A program made the translations under genes and the position numbers. From a virus, in IMG/VR virus record IMGVR_UViG_3300043409_000886, positions 1 to 61,725 of that record: a DNA stretch of 61,725 nt; one strand, 5' to 3'. Positions 5,053-61,584 of this stretch are shown here, piece by piece. The notes under the pieces are model-generated. The model ran no database searches. It saw only the letters and a program-made list of their open reading frames with translations, and was not told the origin of the DNA. The number at the start of each line of letters is the position of its first letter. Position 1 is the first letter of the stretch.

Positions 5053-5236
5053 CTTTATTGGCTGGGCTTTGTTGTTGTGGTGCCTCTGGACCATCGAGCG
5101 GGTCGGCGTGAACGCCACGAGCCTCTGGCTGTCCGTTCTGGCCGTCGGCCTCCTGCTGCTCTCCTTTGCGGTCAGGGTGGGCACCAGTGCCTTGCTCTGG
5201 CGCCAGATCGGACGGGTGATAAACCGTGGCCGGTGA
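5045..5236 (+). CDS. Two-pass membrane protein
   Basis: 63 aa, GTG start inside the end of the previous gene. Two hydrophobic stretches (FIGWALLLWCLWTI and SLWLSVLAVGLLLLSFAV) are separated by a short polar loop, and the C-terminus is basic. The size and topology resemble a class II holin, but it sits directly upstream of the sigma-factor gene in the early operon, far from the lysis cassette. Function is left open. Confidence 0.5.
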   Translation: MLNFIGWALLLWCLWTIERVGVNATSLWLSVLAVGLLLLSFAVRVGTSALLWRQIGRVINRGR

Positions 5237-5798
5237 GCGCACGGCGCTGGGTGACTACCTGCGCACCCTGCACAAGGTGCCCGTCCTCAAGCGCGAGGAG
5301 GAGGCGGAGCTTGGGCGCCGCGCGCAGCTTGGGTGCAAGCCAGCCCTTGACCTGCTGGTCACGCACAACCTGCGCTTCGTGGTCAGCACCGTCAAGGGCA
5401 TGCGGGACTGGGTCAACGTCAGCCTGCCCTACGACGACCTGATCGCCGCCGGCAACGAGGCCATGCTGGAGGCCGCCCGGTCGTGGGTCCCGACCCCCCG
5501 GGCGCGCTTCATCGCCTACGCCAAGCCCTTCATTTTGAGGGGCGTGGTGCGCGCGTGCGACAACGAGGGGAACACCATACGCCTCCCGGTGAATGTGTGC
5601 GAAGAGGTAAGGCTGATGAAGTACCACGAGAACGCCTTGGCGCAGGCCAACGGCGCGGAGCCCACGCAGGCACAGACCGCCGCGGCCATGGGCTCGACAG
5701 CCAAGCGTGTGGGGCAGCTGCGCGGGTTCATCATGCGCGAGCCCAGCAGCATCGAGCTACACCACGAGTCATCCAACGAGGAGCAGGAACATGAGTGA
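5226..5798 (+). CDS. Phage sigma-70-family factor carrying only the region 1.2-2 core
   Basis: 190 aa, GTG start overlapping the previous gene by 11 nt. Residues about 8-35 resemble region 1.2 (LGDYLRTLHKVPVLKREEE). Residues about 45-120 match region 2, with LVTHNLRFVVSTV, DLIAAGNEAMLEAARSW (2.1-2.2, core-binding) and a 2.3-2.4-like segment ending VVRACDNEGNTIRLPVNV (-10 recognition). About 60 residues follow with a region-3-like EPTQAQTAAAMGS helix. There is no region 4, so it should not read a -35 on its own. It probably redirects host RNA polymerase to phage promoters; see the region-4-like protein at 15230 and the late promoters. Confidence 0.8.
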   Translation: MAGERTALGDYLRTLHKVPVLKREEEAELGRRAQLGCKPALDLLVTHNLRFVVSTVKGMRDWVNVSLPYDDLIAAGNEAMLEAARSWVPTPRARFIAYAKPFILRGVVRACDNEGNTIRLPVNVCEEVRLMKYHENALAQANGAEPTQAQTAAAMGSTAKRVGQLRGFIMREPSSIELHHESSNEEQEHE

Positions 5799-6198
5799 CA
5801 GCAACAGCAACTACCTGAAGACACCCCCCAACTGGCGCTTTGACGTCGAGGCGGGGCACTACACCGACGAGGCCGAGAGGCTCGCGGGCAACCTATCTGA
5901 GAGTGTGGCGGCGCGCATGAAGGCACTTAACGCTAAGGGCTGGGCTGACGCCTGCGCGGCCACACCAACGGTCGACAACGAGGTGGTGAGGCCGGCGCAC
6001 TACACCCGCGGGGCGGTGGAGTGCATCGACGCCATCGAGGCTGCGCTTACCCCCGAGGAGTACCGTGGCTACCTGAAGGGCAACGTGCTGAAATACTTCT
6101 GGCGCGAGCGCGACAAGGGCGGGCTGCAGTCGATCCAGAAGGCGGAGTACTACACGCAGCGTCTAATCAAATTACTGGGGGAGAAACAAGATGAATAG
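5791..6198 (+). CDS. DUF3310 family protein
   Basis: 135 aa, ATG at 5791 overlapping the end of the sigma gene, ribosome site GAGGAGCAGGAAC. The C-terminal 65 residues carry the DUF3310 signature: RPAHYTRGAVECIDAIEA, then GYLKGNVLKYFWRERDKGG and QKAEYYTQRLI. The family is widespread in phages, is sometimes labelled a nucleotide kinase, and has no settled function. The N-terminal 65 residues are not conserved in a way I recognise. Confidence 0.8.
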   Translation: MSDSNSNYLKTPPNWRFDVEAGHYTDEAERLAGNLSESVAARMKALNAKGWADACAATPTVDNEVVRPAHYTRGAVECIDAIEAALTPEEYRGYLKGNVLKYFWRERDKGGLQSIQKAEYYTQRLIKLLGEKQDE

Positions 6199-6394
6199 CG
6201 CAGACAGTGGAGCCCTTGTGCCGGTCGTGCTCGTCGTGATGCCGTTACTGGCGGTTACTTTTGCAATTCTTTGCGCGGTGTCGTTCGGCATCAAATCCGC
6301 ATCATCCGACTGGCGCAATGCCTGCGAGAAGCACGGCATGGTTATCTCTGACGGGAAGGTCTACGAGTGCAAGGTTAGGGAGGAAAAGAAATGA
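6191..6394 (+). CDS. Small membrane-anchored protein
   Basis: 67 aa, ATG overlapping the previous gene. One hydrophobic segment (VPVVLVVMPLLAVTFAILCA) is followed by a soluble, basic tail with a Cys pair. From this gene to about 8600 the DNA is visibly AT-richer than the rest of the genome. Confidence 0.5.
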   Translation: MNSADSGALVPVVLVVMPLLAVTFAILCAVSFGIKSASSDWRNACEKHGMVISDGKVYECKVREEKK

Positions 6395-6798
6395 ACAACC
6401 AAAGTGAAAAGCCAATTGAAGAATTGCTGCGTGGCATCCCGCAAGATCATCGAATCTGTATCCCATTTCAGTGGGCAGAGGATGGAAGGGAAACAGGACA
6501 TCACTACATGCCTGTAGGGCGGCACGTTCATCAAGCAGCCGACAAAATTACCGCCTTGCGGGAGAAGTTAAAGGAGTGCCACGAGAACGGACAACGATTA
6601 CTTGCCGTTGCAGACTCGTACAAAGAAGTGAACGCCGCCCTGCGGTTAGATGCAGAGCGGTATCGGTGGTTGCGGGAAAAGATTGAAAACCAAAATTTAA
6701 CAATCGCCGTTGCCGATTCTTGGAGTTTGCGAAGTTGGTCGGGCGACAATTCTGACGCATCCATTGACGCAGCTATGAAGGAGGAGGAAAGGAAATGA
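6391..6798 (+). CDS. Phage accessory protein with DAERYRWLRE-type motif
   Basis: 135 aa, ATG overlapping the previous stop. A central coiled coil (residues about 45-85) leads into ALRLDAERYRWLREKIENQN, a signature shared by many small phage proteins from Burkholderiales-type phages, followed by DNSDASIDAAMKEEERK. The function of the family is not known to me. Confidence 0.6.
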   Translation: MNNQSEKPIEELLRGIPQDHRICIPFQWAEDGRETGHHYMPVGRHVHQAADKITALREKLKECHENGQRLLAVADSYKEVNAALRLDAERYRWLREKIENQNLTIAVADSWSLRSWSGDNSDASIDAAMKEEERK

Positions 6799-6956
6799 CG
6801 CCGAGGCGACGGGTATTGGCGGTCTACAAACAGGCAGAAGTCCACGAGTGGGACAACCACTGGCACATATATTTTGATGGGTACTGTATGGGCAGCGGAA
6901 AGACAGTTGCACTCGCGTGGTCAAACGCAGTTAAACGATTGGAGGCGGTGAAATGA
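6795..6956 (+). CDS. Small hypothetical protein
   Basis: 53 aa, ATG overlapping the previous stop (ATGA) with ribosome site GGAGGAAAGG. Compact, with WDNHWHIYFDGYCMGSG in the middle, consistent with a short beta hairpin. The stop overlaps the next ATG. Confidence 0.5.
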   Translation: MTPRRRVLAVYKQAEVHEWDNHWHIYFDGYCMGSGKTVALAWSNAVKRLEAVK

Positions 6957-7171
6957 GTGAGTACGCAGACGGGTTTGACGATGGCAAAGGTGAAAAGTTT
7001 GACGAACTGATGCTGGAAATCGTCACCCTGCGGGAGCAGTTGGCTGCCTCTAGGCAAGCGGCAGAGATACATAAACTTCAAGCAGAAAAAAACCATGAAC
7101 TTGCCACAAAATATTACGACTTTTACACCAAAGCCGTGAAAGACCAACTCAAGGAGAAAAATAATGGCTAG
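6953..7171 (+). CDS. Small coiled-coil protein
   Basis: 72 aa, ATG overlapping the previous stop, ribosome site GGAGGCG. Mostly one long amphipathic helix with heptads (LMLEIVTLREQLAASRQAAE). No domain is recognised. Overlaps the next gene by 8 nt. Confidence 0.5.
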   Translation: MSEYADGFDDGKGEKFDELMLEIVTLREQLAASRQAAEIHKLQAEKNHELATKYYDFYTKAVKDQLKEKNNG

Positions 7172-7436
7172 ACACAAACACGCAGACGAGATTTGTGCTT
7201 GGGCAAACGGGGTAGAAATACAGGTTCTTAACGGTGGTAAATGGTTTGATATTTACTACCCATCATGGGAAGCGGACGCCAAGTACCGCATCAAGCCACA
7301 ACCTAAACCAGACTACGAAATTGATAGCGTTATAACCCGCCACGGTGTTACCAGCTCTTGTTCTGGCGAGGCAAACCTCCGCTGTGTCTTTGACGGTGAA
7401 ACGGGCGCACTTAAATCTGCGGAGGTATTGAAATGA
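7164..7436 (+). CDS. Phage protein of the HKHAD...YRIKP type, copy 1
   Basis: 90 aa. Begins RHKHADEICAWANGVEIQ, has a Trp/Tyr-rich middle, then AKYRIKPQPKPDYEI and ends VFDGETGALKSAEVLK. The next gene is a paralog with the same three blocks, so the pair arose by tandem duplication. Proteins of this pattern are frequent in phages; their function is unknown. Confidence 0.6.
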   Translation: MARHKHADEICAWANGVEIQVLNGGKWFDIYYPSWEADAKYRIKPQPKPDYEIDSVITRHGVTSSCSGEANLRCVFDGETGALKSAEVLK

Positions 7437-7735
7437 GACACAAACACGCAGACCTGATCCACGCGTGGGCTGACGGGGCAGAGATACAACAAAATGTTCC
7501 CCAGTTTCAGGGGGAGATTTATACTACTAAGTGGTTTGATGACCCCGACCCCCTGTGGTGTTTATTGGCTGAGTACCGCATCAAGCCGCAACCTAAACCG
7601 GACTTTGAAATTCATCTTTACGTAATATATGACTCGCTTTATACAACCGCTGTTTGCAAAAGCGGCACACCAAATGTGCGCTACGTCTTTGACGGCGAAA
7701 CTAACAAACTTAAATCTGCGGAGGTAATAAAATGA
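7433..7735 (+). CDS. Phage protein of the HKHAD...YRIKP type, copy 2
   Basis: 100 aa, ATG overlapping the stop of its paralog. Shares RHKHAD-x-I-x-AWA-x-G-x-EIQ, YRIKPQPKPD-x-EI and VFDGET-x2-LKSAEV-x-K with the gene before it, but has about 10 extra residues in the centre and a diverged C-terminal half. Confidence 0.6.
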   Translation: MRHKHADLIHAWADGAEIQQNVPQFQGEIYTTKWFDDPDPLWCLLAEYRIKPQPKPDFEIHLYVIYDSLYTTAVCKSGTPNVRYVFDGETNKLKSAEVIK

Positions 7736-7962
7736 GTGACAAGACAGGTGGGTCAGCGTATCCAATTATAGGCATACGCGAAATATATGGGCAACCGATG
7801 CAGAACATAATCGCTGACGGCATGACCCTGCTCGATCATTTTGCAGGACAGGCGATGCAGTTGTACCCCATGCTGCACGACGAGGCGGCCGCAAAGTGTA
7901 GCTACGACAGAGCGGAGGCAATGATAAAAGAAAGGGAGGAGCGCAATGAACGAAGGTCTTGA
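7732..7962 (+). CDS. Phage protein with GMTL-x-DHFAGQAM motif
   Basis: 76 aa, ATG overlapping the previous stop. Contains GGSAYPI and DGMTLLDHFAGQAMQ, a combination seen in many small phage proteins of unknown function, followed by a helical acidic C-terminus. The next gene starts 17 nt inside this one. Confidence 0.6.
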   Translation: MSDKTGGSAYPIIGIREIYGQPMQNIIADGMTLLDHFAGQAMQLYPMLHDEAAAKCSYDRAEAMIKEREERNERRS

Positions 7963-8170
7963 ACATCGCTTCTATGTTCCTTCTGAATACTGGGATGAAT
8001 GGTACAAGATCGTACATGACAATAACCTCAGTAGATTTGCGCTTGGCTCAACCGGAGTCGAGAACGGTATCAAGAAAAATTCAGATCATTGGAACGTACA
8101 AGCAAATCTTCGCGCCGAAGCTGAAGGCTTACCACCACGCGAGAACTTACTACTAAGGGAATTCAAATGA
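7946..8170 (+). CDS. Small hypothetical protein
   Basis: 74 aa. ATG at 7946 with ribosome site GGGAGGAGCGCA inside the previous gene. Soluble, with an aromatic N-terminal half (RFYVPSEYWDEWYKIV). No domain is recognised. Confidence 0.5.
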   Translation: MNEGLEHRFYVPSEYWDEWYKIVHDNNLSRFALGSTGVENGIKKNSDHWNVQANLRAEAEGLPPRENLLLREFK

Positions 8171-8373
8171 ACGAACGGATTAGAGAACTTGCCATAGAAG
8201 CCGGGGCTGTGGTGTACGGATGCGGTTACGGCACACTTGATTTTGATGTAGAAAAGTTTGCCGAGTTGATTGTGCGGGAATGTGCTGACTTTGTTGCCGC
8301 CGGAGAATTTGGTGACCCCGGAACCGCCAAAATGTTAATGGAAGATTTTGGAGTGGAGGAGAAGAACGAATGA
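8167..8373 (+). CDS. Small phage protein with KFAELIVRECAD motif
   Basis: 68 aa, ATG overlapping the previous stop. Begins NERIRELAIEAGA and has DFDVEKFAELIVRECADFV, a helical pattern shared by a large set of uncharacterised phage proteins. Acidic C-terminus. Confidence 0.6.
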   Translation: MNERIRELAIEAGAVVYGCGYGTLDFDVEKFAELIVRECADFVAAGEFGDPGTAKMLMEDFGVEEKNE

Positions 8374-8591
8374 AAAAACGAATACAAAAACTTTTAAATC
8401 TTGCCGTAAAAGATGAGGTTGAGGTACACGTTGTGCATGAAACGGCAAAGGTGCGCCACAGAGGAATATACCTAGATGGCGTGTACACAAGAGGTATGGC
8501 CATAGTTATCAAGCAAGAAGCTGAACAGATACTGGATTTCTTTGCCCGTCAAGACACAGCATTGAAGAAGTCAATGGAGAAAACAAAATGA
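8370..8591 (+). CDS. Small hypothetical protein
   Basis: 73 aa, ATG overlapping the previous stop, ribosome site GGAGGAGAAGAACG. Basic at both ends, with a beta-like centre (EVEVHVVHETAKVRHRGIYL). No family is recognised. Confidence 0.5.
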   Translation: MKKRIQKLLNLAVKDEVEVHVVHETAKVRHRGIYLDGVYTRGMAIVIKQEAEQILDFFARQDTALKKSMEKTK

Positions 8592-8785
8592 CCAAACCAG
8601 TGGATAGGTTCGACCTCGAGCAGGCCATACTCAATTGTTGGGGAATCACAAGTGACCTGCGCATGGCGGCTGAGGGGCGGGCCAACGCCGAACTTCTCAA
8701 CGCCATGGCGGTGCTGTATGATGCGAGGTTTGAAGTTCTGTTTAAGGTACTAACAACCATGATTGAGGAAAGGAAGTTTAAATGA
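8588..8785 (+). CDS. Small helical protein of the FDLEQAI-x-NCW type
   Basis: 65 aa, ATG overlapping the previous stop. Starts DRFDLEQAILNCWGITSDL and ends in a long helix with LYDARFEVLFKVL. This two-part pattern occurs in small proteins of several tailed phages, including T4-like ones, without a known role. Confidence 0.55.
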   Translation: MTKPVDRFDLEQAILNCWGITSDLRMAAEGRANAELLNAMAVLYDARFEVLFKVLTTMIEERKFK

Positions 8786-8985
8786 AAAAAGCCAGACTGG
8801 AGTACGTAATGGACGCACGGGGCGAGCTTCAAAAGATCGTGGCAACAGACGCGGTGACGGGGAAGCATTTGGTGGACGTGCTCTGGGACCCCACGGACGA
8901 GCACACGGAGGAGAACCTCGCCGAGTTTGAGGTTTGGGCTAAAAGAATGTTAAAGCGGCTCCAATTCGAGGTTGATGCGGCGTAG
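8782..8985 (+). CDS. Last gene of the early operon, hypothetical
   Basis: 67 aa, ATG overlapping the previous stop, ribosome site GAGGAAAGG. Two short beta-like stretches (RLEYVMDARGELQKIVA, KHLVDVLWD) and an acidic helix. GC rises again in its second half. Followed after 29 nt by a bidirectional hairpin. Confidence 0.5.
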   Translation: MKKARLEYVMDARGELQKIVATDAVTGKHLVDVLWDPTDEHTEENLAEFEVWAKRMLKRLQFEVDAA

Positions 8986-9014
8986 GCGATGTACCGGGAG
9001 GCATCAAACCGGCA

Positions 9015-9045
9015 GCCGAGGTACCTAAGTACCTCGGCTATTCTT
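9015..9045. terminator. Bidirectional hairpin between convergent early operon and HNH gene
   Basis: GCCGAGGTAC (9015-9024) and GTACCTCGGC (9029-9038) form a perfect 10-bp stem with a CTAA loop, followed by TATTCTT on the plus strand. It sits exactly between the two convergent units and includes a base of the HNH stop codon. Confidence 0.65.
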
Positions 9046-9787
9046 GGACGTACTTGTTGTGTTTTGAGCTGTTCTCGGAAGCAGTTATGATCTGAAGATT
9101 TGCAGCAATGTGCAGACCCGACACATTGCGACCCTGCAAAGGGATCACGTGGTCCACGGCGTGTTGTATGCCCGTCACCCTCGTGCGCTCAGCGCACAGC
9201 ACATAGACCGCCTCAATCTCGGCTCGCTGCTCCTGTGTCAACCAAGGTGGTGTCCGCTGCAGCTTGGCCGCACGGCGGCGCGCGGTTTTTGCGTTGATTT
9301 TGCCGGGGTGCGCCTTTGCGTATTTGGCTCGGTAGGCGGCAGCTTTTTCCACGTTTGCTGCGCGATACACGGCGTGGCGGGCGGCAACCTTCGCGACGTT
9401 GGCCTCATAATACTTGGCGTTGTGGGCGGCAGCCTTCTCCGGGTTTGCCCTACGATATTCGGCTTGATAGGCGGCAACCTTCTCGACGTTGGCCACACGA
9501 TACAAGGCTCGTTGGGCGGCAACCTTCTCGACGTTGGCCACACGATACAAGGCTTGCTGGGCGACAACTTTCTCAAAACTTTCAGGGCTAAGCCAACCCT
9601 CATAAAGAAGCCCGGTCTTTTTAGCTATTGCGGCTCCATACCCTTGGAACCTGCGCCCATCAGCCCGGGTGTCCCCATACCTGAACGGCACCCCAGTGGC
9701 CGGGTTAATGCGCCTGAGCGATACAGACGGCTTCAAGCCCTCAATGTTGACGGGCAAGGATTCAGGTAAAACGGGAGTGTGGTTCAA
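9038..9787 (-). CDS. HNH endonuclease with tandem Ala-rich repeats
   Basis: 249 aa. The TTG start at 9787 is supported by CTGGAG seven bases upstream; no ATG lies before the conserved part. Residues about 25-65 form an N-terminal domain (GDTRADGRRF, EGWLSPESFE) also found alone at 60548-60742. About seven repeats of roughly 17 residues follow, of the form YRxANVEKVAAxxAx. The C-terminal 60 residues carry the HNH core, HAVDHVIPL then GLHIAANLQIIT and HNK. It nicks or cuts DNA and may be a free-standing homing enzyme. It has its own phage-type promoter at 9886-9916. Confidence 0.85.
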   Translation of the reverse strand: MNHTPVLPESLPVNIEGLKPSVSLRRINPATGVPFRYGDTRADGRRFQGYGAAIAKKTGLLYEGWLSPESFEKVVAQQALYRVANVEKVAAQRALYRVANVEKVAAYQAEYRRANPEKAAAHNAKYYEANVAKVAARHAVYRAANVEKAAAYRAKYAKAHPGKINAKTARRRAAKLQRTPPWLTQEQRAEIEAVYVLCAERTRVTGIQHAVDHVIPLQGRNVSGLHIAANLQIITASENSSKHNKYVQE

Positions 9788-9885
9788 GATAGAGCTCCAG
9801 TACGCTAAGGTGAGGTGGAAGGCTGCCTAGTTGCGGTACTGGCCACAACAAGATTTGCAAATCGGTTCGGCAGCTTCCTGTAACT

Positions 9886-9916
9886 ACTTATGCAAAAAAT
9901 TGGGGACAACCGCCCC
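9886..9916 (-). promoter_or_regulatory. Phage-type promoter for the HNH gene
   Basis: On the minus strand GGGGCGG (9916-9910), 17 bp, CATAAGT (9892-9886), then AGTTACAGG. One of eight sites with this layout. The spacer includes a short GGGG/CCCC hairpin and a T-run. The start would be near 9880, about 90 nt before the HNH start. Confidence 0.65.
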
Positions 9917-9949
9917 AATGTTTTGCCTTGTTACAAATTGTTACAATTA

Positions 9950-10079
9950 TGTACACAGGTGTCAAGAAGTCGACAGTTTTGCGTATGTTAAGTATGGGTA
10001 GTGATAGTATATTTGACTTTATTTAATTTTAAAAAAGAGAGAAAGAGAAATATACTGGGAGTAACTCATTTAGACCCTG
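9950..10079. repeat. 130-bp element, left copy of a genome-scale inverted repeat
   Basis: Matches the reverse complement of 60840-60968. About 67 bp at the 9950 end (TGTACACAGGTGTC through GATAGTATATTTGA) are identical but for one base. An AT-rich centre differs, then about 30 bp (ATATACTGGGAG to TAGACCCTG) match again. In each location the element lies upstream of the operon that it faces. The 9788-10299 interval otherwise holds only the promoters listed and no gene. Confidence 0.85.
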
Positions 10080-10249
10080 CCAAGGGTTACTTGCCTGCCA
10101 ATTGTGTACAATCCGCCGCCCCAGCACCTTATGGAATCTCAAAAACCCTCCACAACGCGCTACAAGCCACGCAGGCACCTTTTGGCTACTACCCCCTATT
10201 CGCTGTTCGCGAACCCCGCTGGCGCTGGCCTGACAAGCCCGGAGCCCCC

Positions 10250-10277
10250 TTGACAACCCTTTCGTAGTTTGTATAAG
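10250..10277 (+). promoter_or_regulatory. Host sigma-70-like promoter of the replication module
   Basis: TTGACA (10250-10255), 16 bp, TATAAG (10272-10277), followed by TGAAGTATAACC. Unlike the late sites it has a normal -35. It reads into the GTG at 10300. Confidence 0.65.
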
Positions 10278-10299
10278 TGAAGTATAACCGGAGAGCACT

Positions 10300-10824
10300 G
10301 TGAAGATTTACATTGGACCCTACATAAACTGGACTGGACCCTATCAGATCGCCGACCTCCTGCGCTACGTTGGCGTTAAGGAGGACGCCCGCCACAGGGC
10401 CGGGGAGTGGCTCTCCAAGACCCGGGTCAACCAACTCTGCGAGTGGCTGGAGTCAAAGCGCCACCGCACCATAAAGGTACGGATCGACCCCTACGACACG
10501 TGGTCGATGGATTCCACCCTATCGCTCATCATTTTGCCCATGCTGGTGCAGCTGGCGGCGAACAAGCACGGAGCACCCTTCACGGACGACGCCGACGTGC
10601 CCGAGCACCTGCGCTCCACCAGCGCCCCGCCCAAGGAGAATGAGTGGGACACCGACGCCCTGCACTTCGTCCGGTGGGACTGGATACTAAACGAAATGAT
10701 ATGGGCCTTCCAGCGCACCAGCGACAAGGTGACGGACGGGATTGAGTTTGACGAGACGCTAAGGGCCCGGGAGGCCAAAGGCTTCCAGCTCTTCGGCAAA
10801 TATTACCGCGCACTTTGGGACTGA
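10300..10824 (+). CDS. Conserved phage protein upstream of primase-helicase
   Basis: 174 aa. GTG start at 10300 with GGAGAGCACT upstream. Begins KIYIGPYINWTGPYQIADLL, a phrase typical of a phage family found next to replication genes, and has DWILNEMIWAFQ in the C-terminal half. Trp/Tyr-rich and soluble. The function is unknown to me; the position suggests a replication accessory role. The next gene begins one base after its stop. Confidence 0.6.
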   Translation: MKIYIGPYINWTGPYQIADLLRYVGVKEDARHRAGEWLSKTRVNQLCEWLESKRHRTIKVRIDPYDTWSMDSTLSLIILPMLVQLAANKHGAPFTDDADVPEHLRSTSAPPKENEWDTDALHFVRWDWILNEMIWAFQRTSDKVTDGIEFDETLRAREAKGFQLFGKYYRALWD

Positions 10825-10825
10825 C

Positions 10826-13165
10826 ATGCAAAACACCACACAGACACAGACAAACAACAAACCGACCGCACTGCCGGTCCAGTTCGGCAACATCCCGCTA
10901 CCCCTCAGGCAGGTGCCCCGTTGGGTGCTCTGGAGCCACGTGCTGGTCGGGGAGGGCGACAAGTCCCGCTGGTCGAAGCTCCCCCTCCAAGCCTCAGGCC
11001 GCTCCGCCTCATCGACCAATCCAGCCACATGGGCGGGCTATATTGAAGTCGAGGCGGCGTACGCCTCCGGGAATTTTGACGGGGTGGGGTTCGTGTTCGA
11101 TGGGACCGACCAGCTGGTCGGGATCGACCTCGACGACTGCTACGACACCGCCACCAACCGTTTCACAAATGCTGCACTGCAGCAAATAGCCACCTCCGTG
11201 GAGGGTTACATGGAGGTCAGCCCCTCAGGGACGGGGGTGAAGCTCTTCACCTTGGCCGACCTGCCGGGGGCGCACGTCGACCACACCTTGGGGCTGGAGG
11301 TCTACCCCAAGGGGCGCTACTTCACGGTGACGGGTCACAAGCTCTCGGGTGAGATACCGACCACCCCGCAGGACCTGACGAGCCACATACCGGCACGCGC
11401 GGTGAAGCTCTCGGGTGACGACTTCGCGGACTACTCGCCCCCCGTGGAGGGGTACGACATGCCACGGGTGCGGGACGAGGTGCTCTCCCAGATCGACCCG
11501 GACTGTGGCTACACGGACTGGCTCACCGTCGGGATGGCGCTGCACCACCAGTTCGGTGGCTCGGTGGAGGCACAGGAGCTCTGGGACGAGTGGTCCTACC
11601 AAGACGGGGCCTGCGGTGCCTACACCCCGGGGGCCTGCGAGCGGAAGTGGTCCAGCTTCACCCGCAAGGGCGGCGCCACCCTGCGGAGCCTGACCTTCAA
11701 GGTCTCCGCGGCCAAGCGCACCGTGGCGCTCGCCCGGGGCGAGGTCGTCCTCGACGGGGGTCAGCCCCTCGTGCACGCCCGGGAGTTCCTGAGCTCCATG
11801 TACGCCTCCGAGGAGGGCACCAAGCTGGTGCACTACGCGGACGACTTCTTTATCCACGTCGGGACGCACTACGAGGAGATCGAGGAGGCCACGATACGGT
11901 CGCACCTGTACCGCTTCTTGGAGAAGTGCAAGACGCAGGACAAGAAGGGGAACGTCGTCCCGTTCAGGGCGCAGCCGGCCACCGTGACGGCCGGCCTCGA
12001 CGCCATCAAGGCCCTGACGCACTTGGCCAACCAGCCCAACACCCGCCCGCCCGTCTGGCTGGAGGGCTACGCCGCCACCCGCCCCCCGGCGGCGAAGCTG
12101 ATAAGCCTCCAGAACGGGCTGTTCCACTTGGAGGACGGCCTGCTGATGCCGCACAGCTTGGGGTTCTTCACGCAGAACAGCCTCCCCTTTGGCTGGGAGC
12201 CGGGCGCCACGTGCCCGGAGTGGAACAAGTTCTTGGGCGACATCTGGGGGGACGACGCCGAGTCGATACGGCTCCTGCAGGAGTTCTTCGGGTACATCCT
12301 CTCGGGTGACACCCGGCAGCAGAAGCTCCTGAACGTGATTGGACCGCGCCGGTCGGGGAAGGGCACCATCAACAAGGTGCTGGTCTCCCTGCTGGGGCAG
12401 CACAACACGGCCGCCCCGCAGCTGGAGGAGCTGTGCGACACCTTCGGCCTGCAGCCGTGGCTCGGGAAGCTCCTCGCCAGCTTCACGGACGCGCGCGCCC
12501 CCTCACGCAACACGGGGGGCATCGTCTCCCAGCTGCTGCGGATCGTGGGTGGCGACACCGTGACCGTGAACCGCAAGAACAAGGAGGCGTGGCACGGTTA
12601 CCTCCCGGCGCGGATCGTGGTCTACTCCAACGAGGCGCTGCAGTTGGCGGAGAACTCGAACGCGCTGACGGGTCGCATGATGGTCCTGAAGATGAGCAAC
12701 AGCTTCTACGGCAGGGAGGACATCGACTTGGCCACCCGGCTGGGGACGGAGCTGCCCGGGATATTCAACTGGGCGATGGAGGGGCAGCGCAACAGGCTGC
12801 AGCGTGACGGGCAGCGGTTCATACAACCCGCCACGGGGCGCGAGATGCTGGAGCTGATGGAGGAGATCGGTAACCCGATTGGCTCCTTCCTCGAGCGTGT
12901 GCTGGTGTTCGACACGGACAGCGTGGTGGAGAAGGACCACGTCTTCGCGTGCTACAAACGCTGGGCGCTGTCCAAGAACATCAACCCCGGGACGGACCTC
13001 TCCTTCAAGCGGCGCTTCTTGGCCGCCACGTCGGACAGGCGCGTCATATCCGCGCTCGACCGGAGCGGGGGCCTGCAGCGTCACGTCTACCGCGGGGTCA
13101 AGTTCAGCGACGCCGCACAGAAATTTGTCGACTCACTTGAGGCTTTCAACGAGGAGGTATTTTGA
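10826..13165 (+). CDS. PrimPol-SF3 helicase (replicative primase-helicase)
   Basis: 779 aa. Residues about 20-195 look like an archaeo-eukaryotic primase/PrimPol domain: GIDLDDCYD carries metal-binding acids, then SPSGTGVKLF and LEVYPKGRYFTVTGH. Residues about 215-300 fit a primase C-terminal linker (PriCT-2-like, DPDCGYTDWLTVGMALHH). Residues about 500-700 are a D5/P4-type superfamily 3 helicase with Walker A GPRRSGKGT near 506, a FTDAR motif, and sensor-type RIVVYSNEA. It should prime DNA synthesis and unwind the fork in one protein, as in P4 alpha and NrS-1-like polymerases. The first gene of the core replication set. Confidence 0.88.
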   Translation: MQNTTQTQTNNKPTALPVQFGNIPLPLRQVPRWVLWSHVLVGEGDKSRWSKLPLQASGRSASSTNPATWAGYIEVEAAYASGNFDGVGFVFDGTDQLVGIDLDDCYDTATNRFTNAALQQIATSVEGYMEVSPSGTGVKLFTLADLPGAHVDHTLGLEVYPKGRYFTVTGHKLSGEIPTTPQDLTSHIPARAVKLSGDDFADYSPPVEGYDMPRVRDEVLSQIDPDCGYTDWLTVGMALHHQFGGSVEAQELWDEWSYQDGACGAYTPGACERKWSSFTRKGGATLRSLTFKVSAAKRTVALARGEVVLDGGQPLVHAREFLSSMYASEEGTKLVHYADDFFIHVGTHYEEIEEATIRSHLYRFLEKCKTQDKKGNVVPFRAQPATVTAGLDAIKALTHLANQPNTRPPVWLEGYAATRPPAAKLISLQNGLFHLEDGLLMPHSLGFFTQNSLPFGWEPGATCPEWNKFLGDIWGDDAESIRLLQEFFGYILSGDTRQQKLLNVIGPRRSGKGTINKVLVSLLGQHNTAAPQLEELCDTFGLQPWLGKLLASFTDARAPSRNTGGIVSQLLRIVGGDTVTVNRKNKEAWHGYLPARIVVYSNEALQLAENSNALTGRMMVLKMSNSFYGREDIDLATRLGTELPGIFNWAMEGQRNRLQRDGQRFIQPATGREMLELMEEIGNPIGSFLERVLVFDTDSVVEKDHVFACYKRWALSKNINPGTDLSFKRRFLAATSDRRVISALDRSGGLQRHVYRGVKFSDAAQKFVDSLEAFNEEVF

Positions 13166-13884
13166 AAAAGATTAAGTACCCGTACTACAACATCGACTGC
13201 GGCTTCTTCCCGGCGCAGATCAAGCTCTGCTTCAACGACGCGGACTTCCAACGCATCCTCAAGGACCACAAGATCGAGTACCGCGCCAACGCCCTCGACG
13301 AGGGGTGCGCCGAGACGCACTACTTCTCCGATGGGAAGGAGGGGCTGATCGTCCTCGCCATCGACTTGGAGGTGGCGGGGACGGACGTCGCGGTGGTGGC
13401 GGGCACCGTGGCGCATGAGGCCACGCACTGCGCCGAGCGGGTCTTCGAGCACATCGGGGAGGAGCGCGACAGGATCGGGGAGGAGACACGGGCCTACTTG
13501 ACTGAGCACATTGTGGCGCAGTCGATGAAGGCGATCGAAATGTACCGGAGGGACTATGCAAGCAAAATCAAAAAACCCGCTCGAGAGGGAGATAGAAAAG
13601 ACGTTGGTAAAAAAGGTCAAGGCGGCGGGGGGACTGTGCCTGAAGTGGACAAGCAGCGTGACGGGGGTGCCGGACAGGCTGGTGTTCCTGAACCGGCGGG
13701 TGCACCTCGTGGAGCTGAAGACCGCGACGGGAAAGGTATCACCCCGCCAGATCGTGATGTTCAAACTACTATCCACGCTTGGGTTCCCCGTCTGGATTCT
13801 AAGGAGTACAACCGAAATAGAAAGGTTCCTCGAGCAGGCACCACGCTTGGAATAGAAAGGTACCCCAATGAAACAGAAAAGTGA
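13162..13884 (+). CDS. HExxH (metallopeptidase-like) protein with an overprinted C-terminal extension
   Basis: 240 aa as read. The TTG start at 13162 overlaps the helicase stop and follows GAGGAGGTATT. Residues about 84-93 read VAHEATHCAE, a zinc-binding HExxH helix, preceded by an acidic beta region. The recognisable part ends near residue 132. Beyond it the frame stays open for about 108 codons, in a different frame from the complete VRR-NUC gene at 13556-13855. That tail is Gly/Pro/Arg/Asp-rich and looks like read-through of another gene's DNA. Normal phage spacing would end this gene at the VRR-NUC ATG, so a stop codon may have been lost. Confidence 0.6.
   Translation: MKKIKYPYYNIDCGFFPAQIKLCFNDADFQRILKDHKIEYRANALDEGCAETHYFSDGKEGLIVLAIDLEVAGTDVAVVAGTVAHEATHCAERVFEHIGEERDRIGEETRAYLTEHIVAQSMKAIEMYRRDYASKIKKPAREGDRKDVGKKGQGGGGTVPEVDKQRDGGAGQAGVPEPAGAPRGAEDRDGKGITPPDRDVQTTIHAWVPRLDSKEYNRNRKVPRAGTTLGIERYPNETEK
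13556..13855 (+). CDS. VRR-NUC domain nuclease
   Basis: 99 aa, ATG at 13556. The small stand-alone VRR-NUC fold: N-terminal EREIEKTLVKKVKAAGG, then GVPDRLVF (PD motif), HLVELKTATGKVSPRQ (E-x-K plus Gln) and a C-terminal helix. These match the PD-(D/E)XK nuclease core. Stand-alone versions occur widely in phage replication modules next to an SNF2 helicase, as here, and probably process branched or flap DNA. The whole gene lies inside another frame of the preceding ORF. Confidence 0.85.
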   Translation: MQAKSKNPLEREIEKTLVKKVKAAGGLCLKWTSSVTGVPDRLVFLNRRVHLVELKTATGKVSPRQIVMFKLLSTLGFPVWILRSTTEIERFLEQAPRLE

Positions 13885-15223
13885 TCTGCACCAGTACCAG
13901 CTCGATGTTCTCAAATTGGGTACGATCGTCCCCAATTTGAGTACGATCACCCCCAATTTGGGGCTGTTCATGGAGCCGGGCCTCGGTAAGACTGTCACCG
14001 CGCTGACACTAATAGCCGAGAGTCCGTCGGGCAGGACGCTGATCGTGGCCCCCAAGCGGGTGGCGGAGTCGGTCTGGGCCGAGGAGTGCCAGCAGTGGGC
14101 ACACCTTGCCCACCTGCGCGCCTCCAAGGTCATGGGGACCCCCAAGGAGCGTCTGGCGGCGCTCGAGGTCAAGGCCGACCTCTACATCACCAACGTCGAG
14201 AACTTGGTCTGGCTGATTGAGCAGGGAGCCAAGTTCGACTACCTGATCGTGGACGAGTCGAGCCGGTTCAAGGACCCCTCCTCGAAGCGTTTCAAGGCGC
14301 TCAAGAAGGTGCTCAAGGACTTCAGGCGCCGCTTCATCCTGACCGGCACCCCCACGCCGCAGGGGTACGCCGACCTGTGGGCTCAGGTGGGCATCCTCGA
14401 CTTGGGGCAGCGACTGGGTAAGTCCATGACGAGCTTCAGGCAGACCTACATGCACGTCACCGACCGCAACCACCGCACGGGTGTGGTCTACGCGTGGGGG
14501 CTTAATGATGGCGCCGCCGGCGTGATCGAGGGGAAGATAAAGGACATCTGCGTCTCCTTGAAGGCCGCGGACTACCTGCAGCTGCCCCCGCTCATGAACG
14601 TGGAGCACAGGCTGCCGCTCGACGCGGATGTCATGGCGAAGTACAAGGAGCTGAAGAAGACCATGGTGGTGGAGATAGCCGGCGACACGGTGACCGCAGT
14701 AACAGCCGCCGTGCTGGCCGGGAAGCTGTTACAATTCACATCCGGTGCGGTCTACAACGAAGAGAAAGAGGCGCTGCATGTACACGACACGAAGATTGAA
14801 TTTCTCGAATCAATTATTGAGGAGGCAAACGGAGCGCCGACAATCATATTTTACAATTTCCAATCGAGCCTCGCCCGACTGCAGCGCGCCCTCCCCTACG
14901 GACGCGTACTACAGACCAGTTACATCGAGCCTTGGCGAGAGGGACGAGTCCCCGTACTCTTCGCCCACCCCCAGTCCGGGGGGATTGGACTAAACCTGCA
15001 GTGCAACACCCACGAGGTGGCGCACTGCGTCTGGTTCGACCTCCCGTGGTCGAGCGAGCTGTACATACAGGCCAACGCGCGGGTCTACAGGCAGGGACAG
15101 TTGAAGCCAGTCGTGCTCCATCACCTTATAGCTGCCGACACAATCGACGAGCAGGTACTTGAAGTGCTCGCCGGTAAGATAAACACTCAGGCCGCTTTAC
15201 TTGCGGCCCTAAATTTGCATTAG
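13868..15223 (+). CDS. SNF2-type helicase/ATPase with a repeat insertion ahead of Walker A
   Basis: 451 aa, ATG behind GAAAGG. Q-motif LHQYQ at residue 7, Walker A EPGLGKT near 40, Walker B VDESSRFK near 125, ILTGTPTPQG (motif III), and a C-terminal helicase half with SGGIGLNL and QANARVYRQGQ (motifs V-VI). Phage SNF2 proteins accompany VRR-NUC and PolA in replication or recombination modules. Between the Q-motif and Walker A are two copies of a 7-residue unit (LGTIVPN, LSTITPN) encoded by 21-bp repeats that also form inverted repeats at DNA level, probably an in-frame insertion. Confidence 0.88.
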   Translation: MKQKSDLHQYQLDVLKLGTIVPNLSTITPNLGLFMEPGLGKTVTALTLIAESPSGRTLIVAPKRVAESVWAEECQQWAHLAHLRASKVMGTPKERLAALEVKADLYITNVENLVWLIEQGAKFDYLIVDESSRFKDPSSKRFKALKKVLKDFRRRFILTGTPTPQGYADLWAQVGILDLGQRLGKSMTSFRQTYMHVTDRNHRTGVVYAWGLNDGAAGVIEGKIKDICVSLKAADYLQLPPLMNVEHRLPLDADVMAKYKELKKTMVVEIAGDTVTAVTAAVLAGKLLQFTSGAVYNEEKEALHVHDTKIEFLESIIEEANGAPTIIFYNFQSSLARLQRALPYGRVLQTSYIEPWREGRVPVLFAHPQSGGIGLNLQCNTHEVAHCVWFDLPWSSELYIQANARVYRQGQLKPVVLHHLIAADTIDEQVLEVLAGKINTQAALLAALNLH

Positions 15224-15224
15224 T

Positions 15225-15230
15225 ATATAA
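15225..15230 (+). promoter_or_regulatory. Possible early-type -10 before the region-4-like gene
   Basis: TATAAT followed by GAAACCCACAACC, close to the TATAATACCAACCCACAAC of the four early cassettes. The upstream GGCGAAGT block is absent. If active, it would start near 15237 and favour the ATG at 15251. Confidence 0.35.
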
Positions 15231-15547
15231 TGAAACCCACAACCTATGTAATGAACAAAGCATCCCCCCGACTGTCTGACGAGGAGCCCGACCCACTGGA
15301 GCGGGACGACCCGGACGACGACCCACTGCACGAGAGCGGGGACCGGGGGCTGCCGTGGGACAGCGACGACCTCCTAGACATCCGCAACATTGTCGACGAG
15401 TTGCCGGTGGAGCAGCAGGAGATAGTGGAGGCGATGCTGCTGGGGCAGAACCACGAAGACCTCGAGGTCACGGAGAAGTACTGGCGGTACCACCTCGCCA
15501 AGGCCGTGGCAACGATCCGCAGGAAAATGGGAATTAACTTAATTTAG
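15230..15547 (+). CDS. Sigma region-4-like HTH protein (candidate partner of the region-2 sigma)
   Basis: 105 aa from the ATG at 15230, or 98 aa from 15251; neither has a clear ribosome site. Residues about 15-45 are very acidic. Residues about 48-102 (IRNIVDELPVEQQEIVEAML, then LLGQNHEDLEVTEKYWRYHL and AVATIRRKMG) fit sigma-70 region 4: a helix with LP-x2-Q, the hydrophobic -V-x-A-x-L- core, and a recognition helix with KYWRY. Region 4 normally contacts the -35 and the RNA polymerase beta flap. The phage's other sigma gene lacks exactly this region. The assignment rests on pattern and needs structural support. Confidence 0.55.
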   Translation: MKPTTYVMNKASPRLSDEEPDPLERDDPDDDPLHESGDRGLPWDSDDLLDIRNIVDELPVEQQEIVEAMLLGQNHEDLEVTEKYWRYHLAKAVATIRRKMGINLI

Positions 15548-15756: not shown

Positions 15757-15940
15757 CGCACCCTTCCAGAAAACCCCCGCGGCGACCCTCGTGAGCGCCA
15801 TGGAGCCCACCCACAAACTCGACCCCAAGCGGGCGGAGCTGGCGGGCGCCATCACCCGGACGATCATCAATCAGGCGCTCACCGAGGTGCGCCGTGTCAA
15901 GGAACACATGGCCAAACAGGAGGGCGAGAAGGGTAAATAA
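15749..15940 (+). CDS. Small hypothetical protein
   Basis: 63 aa, ATG at 15749 overlapping the previous stop. Helical, with a Lys/Glu-rich tail (RRVKEHMAKQEGEKGK). Its final codons contain the AGGGCGA box of the promoter at 15921, so coding and regulatory sequence overlap. Confidence 0.55.
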   Translation: MSDAPFQKTPAATLVSAMEPTHKLDPKRAELAGAITRTIINQALTEVRRVKEHMAKQEGEKGK

Positions 15941-15951
15941 TTTGTATAAGT
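15921..15951 (+). promoter_or_regulatory. Phage-type (late) promoter on the plus strand, before the putative small terminase
   Basis: AGGGCGA (15921-15927), exactly 17 bp, TATAAGT (15945-15951), then GGTTATAGGGGG. The only plus-strand site with both boxes. It lies upstream of 16053, a likely DNA-packaging gene, which fits a late-expression class. Confidence 0.65.
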
Positions 15952-16052: not shown

Positions 16053-16433
16053 ATGGCTACAAAGTACGACCCAAAAATGTTGCCCACTATCCTCGAGATG
16101 GGGAAAGCCGGCGCGTCTCAAAAGATGATCTGGTCGGTGCTGGGTATATCCAGCTCCACCGCAGCCGCGTGGAAGAAGAAGTACCCCGACTTCGCGGAGA
16201 CCCTCGACTTGGCGCTGGTGCACTCACAGGCGCACTGGGAGCGGACGATGCTGGCCAACGCGGAAAATAAAAACTTCAACACCCGCATGGTAGAGATTGC
16301 CGTGAGGGGGCAGTTCCCGCTCGACTACAAGGAGCAGCGCGAGCAGAAGGTGGAGGTCAAGGCCGACGTCAACATCGACTTTGGCGCCGCCGTGACCGAC
16401 CTGATAAAGCAACTGAAAGATACAAAAGACTAA
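16053..16433 (+). CDS. Putative terminase small subunit
   Basis: 126 aa, ATG with AGAGAATAAAA upstream. Residues 1-50 form an HTH-like unit (MLPTILEMGKAGASQKMIWS, GISSSTAAAWKKKYP). Then comes HSQAHWERTMLANAENKNFN and VEIAVRGQFPLDYKEQ, a layout common to phage small terminases: DNA recognition, then an oligomerisation helix pair, then a basic or acidic tail. It would select the packaging site for the large terminase. It sits about 43 kb from the large terminase and on the other strand, but is preceded by a late-type promoter and followed by a terminator, so it forms its own unit. Confidence 0.6.
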   Translation: MATKYDPKMLPTILEMGKAGASQKMIWSVLGISSSTAAAWKKKYPDFAETLDLALVHSQAHWERTMLANAENKNFNTRMVEIAVRGQFPLDYKEQREQKVEVKADVNIDFGAAVTDLIKQLKDTKD

Positions 16434-16489: not shown

Positions 16490-16501
16490 TATAAGTAGTT
16501 A
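16490..16501 (+). promoter_or_regulatory. TATAAGT element before the DUF2800 gene
   Basis: TATAAGT at 16490-16496 followed by AGTTATACG, the same downstream half as the late promoters, but there is no RGGGCGR box 17 bp upstream because the terminator hairpin occupies that place. Possibly a weaker or differently regulated site. Confidence 0.4.
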
Positions 16502-16531: not shown

Positions 16532-17665
16532 ATGACAGCCCACGCAATTCTATCCGCATCCTCCTCCAAGAGGTGGCTCACCTGCACCCCCTCAGCGAGG
16601 CTGGAGGCCACGCTCCCCGAGCGCAGGTCAGCCCCCGGGGCGTTCAACTTCTCCGAGGAGGGGACGACGGCGCACACCTTGGCCGACATCAAGCTGCGCC
16701 GCGCCTACAACCAGATGACCGGGAAGGAGTACGCCGCGGAGTACGCCAAGGTCAGGGCGACCCAGTACTACGACGATGAGTTCGAGTCCTACGTGGATGG
16801 GTACGTCGTCTACATACGGAGCCAGATTGGTGAGGGGGACCGCCCCCTGTTCGAGCAGCGCGTGGACTACTCCGAGTGGGCGCCCGACGGGTTCGGCACG
16901 GCGGACGTGGTGATCCTCTCCGAGCGCAAGGTGCGGGTCATCGACCTGAAATTCGGGAAGGGCGTCCCGGTGGACGCGCGCGACAACCCGCAGCTGAGGC
17001 TGTACGCCCTCGGCGCCTACGCCAAGTACCGGGAGGAGTTCCCCAACATCACGGAGGTGGAGTACACGATATGCCAGCCCCGTCTGGACTCCATCACAAC
17101 CGACCACACGACCGTGGAGCGGCTCCTCGACTGGGCGGACTACTTCGTCAAGCAGAAGGCCAAGAAGGCGTGGACGGGGGTAGGGGATTTTGTGGCGGGG
17201 GATCACTGCCAGTTCTGCCGCGCGAAGAGCCAGTGCCGGGCGCGGTCGGACTTCAACAACGACATCGCCAAGCTCGAGTTCCGCGCGCCGGCCCTGCTAG
17301 ATTCTGGGGAGATGGAGCTAATTCTTGGCAAGTCCTCCAAGATGAAGGCGTGGCTCACGGACGTGGAGGTCTGGGCGCTCGACCGTGCGGTGAACGAGGG
17401 GACGCTCCCGACCGGGTACCACCTCGGGCGTGGGACGACCCACCGCAAGATAACGGACGAGGTGGCGGCGGCGGAGCGGCTGATAGCGGCCGGGATCGAG
17501 GAGGACAAGATTTGGGAGAACCGCGCCCTGAAGTCCATCGCCAAGCTGGAGAAGGTCGGGAAGAAGGAGCACATACAGCACGTGCTGGGTGAGCTCATCA
17601 CCCGCCCCGAGGGCGCACTGAAGCTCATACGCGTCGACGAAGACGCCAAGAAGGACTTCGCGTGA
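16532..17665 (+). CDS. DUF2800 protein, PD-(D/E)XK (RecB/Cas4-like) nuclease
   Basis: 377 aa. ATG at 16532. N-terminal SASSSKRWLTCTPSARLE and EEGTTAHTLADIK, then the nuclease core at residues about 95-160: FGTADVVILSERKVRVIDLK with FGKG, giving the D and D-x-K catalytic pair. Residues about 225-240 carry CQFCRAKSQCRAR, three Cys that with an N-terminal Cys could bind an Fe-S cluster as in Cas4/AddB proteins. DUF2800 genes are a regular partner of DUF2815 and PolA in phages of this type and probably act in end resection or recombination. Confidence 0.85.
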   Translation: MTAHAILSASSSKRWLTCTPSARLEATLPERRSAPGAFNFSEEGTTAHTLADIKLRRAYNQMTGKEYAAEYAKVRATQYYDDEFESYVDGYVVYIRSQIGEGDRPLFEQRVDYSEWAPDGFGTADVVILSERKVRVIDLKFGKGVPVDARDNPQLRLYALGAYAKYREEFPNITEVEYTICQPRLDSITTDHTTVERLLDWADYFVKQKAKKAWTGVGDFVAGDHCQFCRAKSQCRARSDFNNDIAKLEFRAPALLDSGEMELILGKSSKMKAWLTDVEVWALDRAVNEGTLPTGYHLGRGTTHRKITDEVAAAERLIAAGIEEDKIWENRALKSIAKLEKVGKKEHIQHVLGELITRPEGALKLIRVDEDAKKDFA

Positions 17666-18098: not shown

Positions 18099-18126
18099 TT
18101 GCTATTTGGCTCGGAGTTTGTATAAG
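18099..18126 (+). promoter_or_regulatory. Probable sigma-70-like promoter for the SSB operon
   Basis: TTGCTA (18099-18104), 16 bp, TATAAG (18121-18126), followed by TGTAGG. Same spacing as the promoter at 10250 and different from the 17-bp late sites. Confidence 0.5.
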
Positions 18127-18202
18127 TGTAGGTAAGCAAGGGGCAGACGCGCCGCCCCCCACTGAAGTGCGGCGCTTTCGTAGTTACTAGGAGATTTAAA
18201 CC

Positions 18203-29874: not shown

Positions 29875-31017
29875 TTAGTACCACGAATCATCAGAGTCCG
29901 CCGCGGCGGTGTTCCAGTCGCTGCCGTATGGGGACTCGTCCTCGTAGACGTACCCGCCACTTATTGGGCTATCGAATAGTGGGTCACCACCTACACCCAT
30001 CCCGGTCTTGGGGACAACATATGGGTCGCCGTTTGCATAAACAGATTCCCCGGAAGAGTTTGTGTACCACGGCGTTCCGTCTGCAGCGTACCCCCTAACT
30101 GGGCCATACGAGGGGTGTAAGGGAAACTCAACATCCCCGCTGCCGGTGTTGTTTCCCGGCGTCGTCGGGGTTGTCGGGGTCGTCGGGGTTGTCGGCGTCC
30201 TGCCTATCCCCAGCGCACCCAGCAGGCTCTGCAGCCCCGGGATGCCCTGCACGGCGGGCTTGTAGCCCGGGGTGTTCGGCGTCCCAACAGCGGGTGTGCC
30301 GTAGACGGAGTCCATTATGTTGGAGCCCCCGCCGATCATCGTGAGCAGTGAACCAACTTGGCTGAGGGGCGCAAGCTCGGTCTGTCTCGTTGTCGTTGTG
30401 CCCGGCTTCGCAGCGTTGAGGACGTTCGCCACGTTTGAGAGCTGCGTGGTTGGGAAGTTCGCGGTGTCGAGGGCGCTCTTGACGCCCTGACCACCGACGG
30501 TGCCTAGGCTGCTTGCCGCCGACACGCCGGTCTGCTGCGAGGCCAGAGCCTCGGTCATTTGTTTCTGGAAGAGGTCGGCCAACGCACCGGCGCGCGCCTT
30601 CTGCACGCCGTAACGCTGCTGGGAGCCACCGAACCCGCCCGAGCTGATACCCTGAGCCTCGGCGGGTGCTGTGATGTCGGGCATCATCTTGTTGAGGTAG
30701 TCCGTCTGCGCGGAGAAGAGCCCACCCAGTGGGGTGCTGACGTTCGGTGTGACGGTCTGCTTTCCGGCGGCATCGGTGGCGACGTTCCACGGGTTCGCGG
30801 CGCCAGAGCCAATGGTCTGCAACGTGCTGGCCGCCGAGGTGAAGGGGTTGGTCGCGCCCGGTGCGAATGTGGAGGTGGCGAACTGCTGCGCCTGACCGGG
30901 TGCCTGCGCCTGAGCCAGCGAGGCGTTGACAACGCCCTGCTGCGCCGCGTCGTACCACTTAGGCAACGTCAGTGTGGTGTTCTCCGTGTTGGAGAGGATG
31001 CTATTGAGTCCGGCCAT
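29875..31017 (-). CDS. Internal virion protein with TPT repeats
   Basis: 380 aa. ATG at 31017 shares bases with the preceding stop. N-terminal 150 residues include SSGGFGGSQQRYGVQKARAG, a phrase seen in phage internal virion proteins between connector and DNA-ejection genes. Residues about 275-290 are a 9-bp repeat (GTCGGGGTT on the plus strand) encoding TPTTPTTPTTPTTPG, a flexible linker. The C-terminus is Tyr/Asp/Ser-rich and acidic. Confidence 0.5.
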   Translation of the reverse strand: MAGLNSILSNTENTTLTLPKWYDAAQQGVVNASLAQAQAPGQAQQFATSTFAPGATNPFTSAASTLQTIGSGAANPWNVATDAAGKQTVTPNVSTPLGGLFSAQTDYLNKMMPDITAPAEAQGISSGGFGGSQQRYGVQKARAGALADLFQKQMTEALASQQTGVSAASSLGTVGGQGVKSALDTANFPTTQLSNVANVLNAAKPGTTTTRQTELAPLSQVGSLLTMIGGGSNIMDSVYGTPAVGTPNTPGYKPAVQGIPGLQSLLGALGIGRTPTTPTTPTTPTTPGNNTGSGDVEFPLHPSYGPVRGYAADGTPWYTNSSGESVYANGDPYVVPKTGMGVGGDPLFDSPISGGYVYEDESPYGSDWNTAAADSDDSWY

Positions 31018-33359: not shown

Positions 33360-33390
33360 ACTTATACAGAAAAACAGTGTTATCCGCCCT
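33360..33390 (-). promoter_or_regulatory. Phage-type late promoter
   Basis: Minus strand AGGGCGG (33390-33384), 17 bp, TATAAGT (33366-33360), then AGATATAGGAAG. Its upstream box overlaps the stop region of the preceding gene. Start near 33353; next gene begins at 33325. Confidence 0.65.
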
Positions 33391-40075: not shown

Positions 40076-40106
40076 ACTTATGCAAAAAACGGGGTGTTTT
40101 CGCCCC
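40076..40106 (-). promoter_or_regulatory. Phage-type late promoter
   Basis: Minus strand GGGGCGA (40106-40100), 17 bp, CATAAGT (40082-40076), then GGTTATAGG. The spacer carries a GGGG-AAAACA-CCCC hairpin plus T-run, so the same sequence may also terminate upstream lysis transcripts. Start near 40069. Confidence 0.7.
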
Positions 40107-49158: not shown

Positions 49159-49252
49159 GTCGGTTTCCTTACTTAGAGGTTGCCCCAAACAGTCACTAAG
49201 CTGTCGACCCGGAAGTGTTGGCCGTCTGGGTGGGGTGAATCTTCCTATAACT

Positions 49253-49283
49253 ACTTATACAAAAACTGGGCTAAATTCGCCCC
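49253..49283 (-). promoter_or_regulatory. Phage-type late promoter for the fibre genes
   Basis: Minus strand GGGGCGA (49283-49277), 17 bp, TATAAGT (49259-49253), then AGTTATAGGAAG. Directly preceded by the terminator at 49298, so capsid and fibre transcripts are separated here. Confidence 0.7.
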
Positions 49284-53290: not shown

Positions 53291-53321
53291 ACTTATGCAA
53301 AACAAATGCAACATCCGCCCT
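53291..53321 (-). promoter_or_regulatory. Phage-type late promoter, leaderless context
   Basis: Minus strand AGGGCGG (53321-53315), 17 bp, CATAAGT (53297-53291), then TAATAT and the ATG at 53284. The downstream GTTATAGG half is lost, but both boxes and spacing are kept. Confidence 0.6.
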
Positions 53322-58065: not shown

Positions 58066-58096
58066 ACTTATGCAAAAAATCAGGGGTTACCGCCCC
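58066..58096 (-). promoter_or_regulatory. Phage-type late promoter
   Basis: Minus strand GGGGCGG (58096-58090), 17 bp, CATAAGT (58072-58066), then GGTTATAGG. Spacer holds a CCCC stretch able to pair with the GGGG box, then a T-run: a combined terminator-promoter after the terminase gene. Start near 58059. Confidence 0.7.
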
Positions 58097-60747: not shown

Positions 60748-60778
60748 ACTTATACAAAAATGTGTACACACCCGCCCC
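60748..60778 (-). promoter_or_regulatory. First late promoter of the morphogenesis operon, leaderless context
   Basis: Minus strand GGGGCGG (60778-60772), 17 bp, TATAAGT (60754-60748), AGGTT, then ATG at 60742. A TGTGTACACA palindrome lies inside the spacer (60761-60770), so a repressor there would block the promoter directly. Confidence 0.68.
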
Positions 60779-61571: not shown

Positions 61572-61584
61572 GGTGGCTAGGCCG

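Follow-up and report, generated by a model that had tools for sequence, protein, structure and literature searches.

A candidate two-subunit sigma factor encoded in separate modules of a freshwater phage genome

A sigma gene without region 4 and its distant putative partner

The window analyzed here (the whole stretch of DNA, a 61.7-kb virus record) carries a 127-nt terminal repeat and therefore represents all or nearly all of a phage genome. The portal protein is 48-53% identical to those of Caulobacter phage RW and a Manatee Spring phage. Two genes of this phage, located 9 kb apart in different modules, are considered below.

5226..5798, + strand: P0001, open frame with a GTG start, 190 aa; sigma-70 family protein
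15230..15547, + strand: P0002, 105 aa; acidic N-terminal motif and C-terminal sigma-region-4-like HTH domain (residues ~42-100, predicted)

P0001 is laid out as regions 1.2, 2, and 3.0-3.1 followed by an acidic tail, without region 3.2 or 4. It matched the Pfam families Sigma70_r1_2 (E 4e-7) and Sigma70_r2 (E 7e-5), and the Pfam r3 family alone gave a weak match (E 0.82). By phmmer, residues 11-178 aligned with SigA in the PDB (E 1e-16), and a profile of 65 family members matched SigA with an E value of 3e-39. This profile alignment extends through region 3.1 as far as the conserved 'EPxSL', which in SigA lies ahead of region 3.2; in P0001 itself, 'REPSSIE' marks the end of the region 3.0-3.1 part, just short of region 3.2. 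AlphaFold and Foldseek results agreed with the sigma-70 assignment. The original prediction had described a sigma factor with regions 1.2-2 and no region 4; the lack of region 4 held, and the Pfam and PDB profile comparisons add a region 3.0-3.1 part that had been overlooked.

Region 4 was absent from the P0001 chain and from those of all relatives, as judged by Pfam, alignment, and frame lengths, and no match to Pfam PF04545 or PF08281 was found anywhere in the window. Truncation at the 3.1/3.2 border followed by a short acidic tail was seen in 65 of 65 aligned relatives, and the longest open frame among 155 P0001 homologues was 239 aa, counted from stop to stop. Since the relatives are all this short, loss of region 4 is common to the family and the gene is not broken. 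A frameshifted or truncated full-length sigma was also considered as the origin of P0001 and rejected, as the relatives share one end point and Pfam identified no region 4 elsewhere. Detection of relatives depended on the query: scanning IMG/VR with the single P0001 sequence gave 0 matches, and scanning with a two-sequence alignment gave 110. The relatives are metagenomic and environmental, and the family is freshwater and uncultured.

The P0002 gene comes after a gene for an SNF2-type helicase. P0002 itself had no Pfam match. The family was represented by an alignment of 48 sequences, with at least 403 matches in IMG/VR, and hundreds of environmental relatives carry the gene. In this alignment, the conserved N-terminal motif PRLSDExDPxEQDD is followed by GWLPW and then by the HTH-like part. 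Sigma70_r4_2 was the most frequent Pfam family, weakly matched by 15 of the 48 members (best E 0.0016), and GerE was not among the Pfam families listed for them. Profile comparison with hhalign gave equal scores for ECF region 4 and the LuxR/GerE HTH, and a PDB sequence search with the P0002 profile returned nothing significant. As far as its sequence goes, then, P0002 does not allow region 4 and a LuxR-type HTH to be separated.

Structure prediction was more informative about the fold. The AlphaFold model of P0002, built from the 48-sequence alignment, had pLDDT values of 94-98 (~96) across residues 51-100. When it was compared with the PDB by Foldseek, ranks 1-6 and most of the top 50 were sigma region-4 domains, and FixJ- and VpsT-type HTH domains ranked lower. 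The probabilities were 0.9-1.0, yet E values exceeded 0.05, which a domain of this length would be expected to give. Among viral models, the top match was an uncharacterized family member and most of the next ones were sigma factors. Inspection showed that helix 3 is ~4 residues shorter than in a typical region 4. A region-4-like fold of the C-terminal domain is supported by the model, and binding to the beta flap has not been shown. Predicted alone, then, P0001 is sigma-like and the P0002 C-terminal domain region-4-like, and model and PDB matches bear out the original prediction that the last 55 residues of P0002 resemble region 4. In length and character, the acidic N-terminal segment is like region 3.2, and P0002 may accordingly correspond to regions 3.2 and 4, a suggestion that rests on resemblance only. 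Three lineages carry a divergent second copy of P0002 immediately upstream of the sigma gene (L071:8852-9169, L155:7040-7591, and L048:8829-9278).

The two genes occur together. P0002 was present in 73 of 73 P0001 loci with a complete helicase neighborhood, and exactly one copy of each gene was found in all 11 near-complete genomes (10 relatives and the window). For two P0002 loci without a sigma gene in the fetched stretch, the sigma gene lies farther off. The evolutionary distances of P0001 and P0002 remained correlated once the helicase distances were taken into account (partial r 0.59, permutation p 0.0005). A beta-proteobacterial MAG contains both genes, on separate small contigs that are probably phage, which provides a weak host lead. 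Both were absent by BLAST from the first 50 kb of Caulobacter phage RW, one of the nearest isolates by portal, and tblastn with P0002 and with relative L130 identified no homologue in 50,697 isolate-phage records.

Two classes of promoter

The original prediction had proposed a new -10 element and a -35-like box at a fixed spacing of 17 bp, with a late promoter at 60748. This site proved to be one of eight in the window that match GGGCGR-N17-YATAAGT, all exactly and all with 17 bp; shuffled sequences are expected to give 0.22. Seven are leftward and one is rightward, and most lie upstream of structural genes.

9886..9915, - strand: predicted bipartite late promoter upstream of leftward gene 9038-9787
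15922..15951, + strand: predicted bipartite late promoter GGGCGA-N17-TATAAGT, the sole rightward site, ahead of the gene for the terminase small subunit
16053..16433, + strand: terminase small subunit (PHROG 309, E 3e-13), product of the late gene that follows the rightward promoter
33360..33389, - strand: predicted bipartite late promoter upstream of 31017-32951
40076..40105, - strand: predicted bipartite late promoter upstream of 38855-40021
49253..49282, - strand: predicted bipartite late promoter upstream of 48601-49188
53291..53320, - strand: predicted bipartite late promoter upstream of 52665-53093 (GroES-like, PHROG 3188)
58066..58095, - strand: predicted bipartite late promoter ahead of 56464-58029 and of the portal gene at 53536-56460
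60748..60777, - strand: predicted bipartite late promoter ahead of 59557-60558 and of the gene for the terminase large subunit at 58130-59737

Across relatives, GGGCGN-N17-YATWAGT occurred at 104 distinct sites with 17-bp spacing and at no more than 2 for any other spacing from 8 to 30; the same scan of reversed controls was flat. With YATWAKT as the -10 element, there were 123 sites at 17 bp versus at most 8 at other spacings, and a dyad search without prior knowledge recovered the same pair of GGGCG and -10. The GGGCG box hardly varies among relatives. The box was present at 36 of 48 intergenic sites on the late strand, compared with 10 of 28 such sites on the replication strand (Fisher p 0.001). 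A site before the terminase small subunit gene accounts for ~20 of 44 distinct rightward bipartite sites, and the rightward site supports the late-gene rule because it precedes this gene, a late gene on the replication strand. Motif searches identified no GGGCG box or late promoter in the sister clade G014/G016, in which both genes are present.

The products of two genes next to these sites were judged by eye. Leftward gene 9038-9787 (- strand), with a late-type promoter inside the early/middle region, encodes 15-residue repeats and an HNH-like end, and the protein of 59557-60558 (- strand), upstream of the terminase large subunit gene, looks like a free-standing Hint/intein-type domain and has no Pfam match.

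The second class comprises the same -10 elements without the GGGCG box.

10272..10278, + strand: -10-like TATAAGT upstream of 10300 and the primase gene
15218..15224, + strand: CATTAGT preceded by TTTG, 5 nt ahead of the P0002 ATG; no GGGCG at 17 bp
16490..16496, + strand: TATAAGT with a full extended -10 and downstream match, no -35 box
18121..18127, + strand: weaker TATAAGT ahead of the gene for the ssDNA-binding protein (18203)

The site at 16490..16496 directly follows a terminator-like hairpin and lies upstream of the DUF2800 nuclease gene 16532-17665, and that at 10272..10278 overlaps a plausible host-type TTGACA box at 16 bp. Of the intergenic sites, 18 of 28 on the replication strand lacked the GGGCG box, a larger share than the 12 of 48 on the late strand (Fisher p 0.001). 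The site at 15218..15224 is a candidate P0001-alone promoter of P0002, possibly a leaderless one. Among relatives, a -10-only site was found 5-9 nt upstream of ~20 of 98 distinct P0002 genes; those lacking it overlap or closely follow the upstream gene. The distance from the -10 element to the next ATG was enriched at 6 nt in the relatives' loci (19 of 122 bipartite sites and 49 of 438 others; e.g., in L026, L055, L063, and L105), which suggests leaderless mRNAs in this phage family.

Variation of the -10 element mostly followed P0001: the variants TGCATAAGT, TGCATTAGT, and CGTATTAGT largely coincide with P0001 clades. Region 3.0 of sigma-70 touches the extended -10, and in P0001 this region mostly reads PIKVREE, in place of PVNxxEE, in clades whose -10 element is preceded by CG rather than TG. 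In CG-type genomes, the site upstream of P0002 is also of the CG type, although the same bases encode the end of the helicase. This tracking reflects few independent events. The mosaic L105 breaks the pattern, with a TG-type P0001 and CG-type promoters near P0002, and L081 has TGCATAAGT promoters with a P0001 otherwise typical of TGCATTAGT.

A two-subunit reading weighed against alternatives

We consider it likely that P0001 and P0002 are two subunits of one phage sigma factor, with P0001 alone serving middle promoters and both proteins serving late promoters. P0001, through regions 1.2-2-3.1, would dock on the host core RNA polymerase and read the extended -10 (TGYATAAGT in the window phage), and P0002 would take the place of region 4 at the beta flap, reading the GGGCG box 17 bp upstream. 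Made early, P0001 would by itself fire the -10-only middle promoters, including the one at the start of the P0002 gene, and the two proteins would then fire the bipartite late promoters of structural and packaging genes. The genes, their conservation and co-occurrence, the predicted fold, and the two promoter classes are computational observations. Joint polymerase binding, the need for both proteins, assignment of boxes to subunits, and the order of events are inferred, in the absence of binding or transcription data.

The split-sigma interpretation offered in the original prediction is supported by a sigma factor lacking region 4 in every relative, the region-4-like fold predicted for P0002, and the co-occurrence and excess co-evolution of the two proteins. 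On the promoter side, it is supported by a fixed-spacing class with a -35 box unlike that of the host and by -10 variants that mostly follow P0001 regions 2.4/3.0. Against it stand the ambiguous sequence, Foldseek E values above 0.05, and shorter helix 3 of P0002, the lack of a GGGCG promoter in G014/G016, the L105 mosaic, and some late-strand -10 sites without a -35 box. The accompanying proposal that late promoters wait for both an early and a middle protein is strengthened by the -10-only sites in the replication module, one of them at the P0002 gene start. That site suggests that P0001 alone turns on P0002, after which both turn on late genes. A cascade from P0001 alone to P0001 with P0002 is well motivated, and its exact form is not universal. 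We lean, only slightly, toward a self-timing middle-to-late switch built from a split sigma whose subunits are timed apart, with P0002 possibly carrying regions 3.2 and 4.

If P0002 were instead a MotA-like activator, it would read GGGCG and recruit host sigma-70 to a TATAAT-like -10, leaving P0001 to serve other promoters. TATAAGT is close to TATAAT, and in sequence the C-terminal domain of P0002 is equally like LuxR-type activators, but most relatives have a -10 element (CATWAGT or CGTATTAGT) that differs greatly from the usual host consensus, and -10 variants mostly follow the P0001 sequence. Strict co-occurrence and excess co-evolution of P0002 with P0001 also count against such an activator, which we regard as unlikely. 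A T4-like arrangement, with P0001 as the sole late sigma (as gp55) and P0002 as a flap-bound co-activator without DNA specificity (as gp33), seems to us quite improbable. It has to accommodate a conserved -35-like box at fixed spacing and a region-4-like P0002 fold, whereas gp33 neither has a structural relationship to region 4 nor binds in a sequence-specific way (PMC7892883, PMC2988020); in its favor are the existence of -10-only promoters and the fact that gp33 also occupies the region-4 site (PMC2988020, PMC7892883). We give very little credence to the possibility that P0001 and P0002 act independently, with GGGCG being read by yet another phage protein. Further small unknown proteins do occur, but Pfam identified no other region-4-like protein in the window, and P0002 is the region-4-like protein in every testable relative.

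Comparison with known systems and further observations

The P0001/P0002 pair is best called a phage-borne variant of a two-subunit sigma, with its subunits in different modules. In SigO-RsoA of B. subtilis, sigma-2 and sigma-4 functions reside on two proteins whose cooperation is needed at one promoter (PMC8103513, PMC10028694). The division of region-2 and region-4 roles is similar here, by analogy only, as no homology comparison was made. Unlike that cellular system of few operons, the phage genes lie 9 kb apart in different modules, and the large subunit P0001 also has regions 1.2 and 3.1. T4 gp55/gp33 has been termed a split sigma (PMC2988020) and likewise combines a region-2-type sigma lacking region 4 with a partner of ~110 aa (PMC2988020), a likeness that is functional only. 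Unlike the putative role of P0002, gp33 gives no -35 specificity and is structurally unrelated to region 4 (PMC7892883, PMC2988020); in the present phage, a -35 box is present and a region-4-like fold is predicted. T4-type late promoters consist of a -10 element only, which the bipartite late sites do not match.

Bacillus phage SPO1 gp34/gp33 (197 and 101 aa) is needed at late promoters with CGTTAGA-N17-19-GATATT and thus resembles the present pair as two phage proteins serving two-box late promoters (PMC3601020), whereas gp34 itself shows a region-4 match, though a weak one, in addition to region 2. P0002 was rejected as a homologue of SPO1 gp33, which belongs to the Phage_Gene33 family PF25742 and showed no similarity to P0002. 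In T4 MotA/AsiA, a phage protein supplies upstream-box recognition at middle promoters (PMC11598898); that system uses host sigma-70, whereas the present phage encodes a sigma that has a -10 element of its own.

In open-access papers, two-subunit sigmas are known from one well-studied bacterial case and, more loosely, from T4. The present split, at the 3.1/3.2 border, is maintained throughout a large family of uncultured freshwater phages. Dozens of natural promoters differ by the -35 box, which makes the uncoupling in time of -10 and -35 functions testable, and the pair would offer an orthogonal AND-type promoter system.

Other promoter-like sequences were observed in the early region and at the genome ends. 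An array matching the sigma-54-type consensus TGGCACG-N4-TTGCT, on both strands, overlapping and divergent, occupies 16-220 and 61534-61705, between rightward early and leftward late genes, and accounts for 13 of the window's 14 matches. G014 and G016 have similar clusters of 8 sigma-54-type sites. These sites may serve early transcription by host sigma-54 or be palindromic iterons. A repeated early promoter-like unit, TACGAAAAACCCATATAAT, is found at window positions 394, 1545, 2141, and 2857, before several small early genes.
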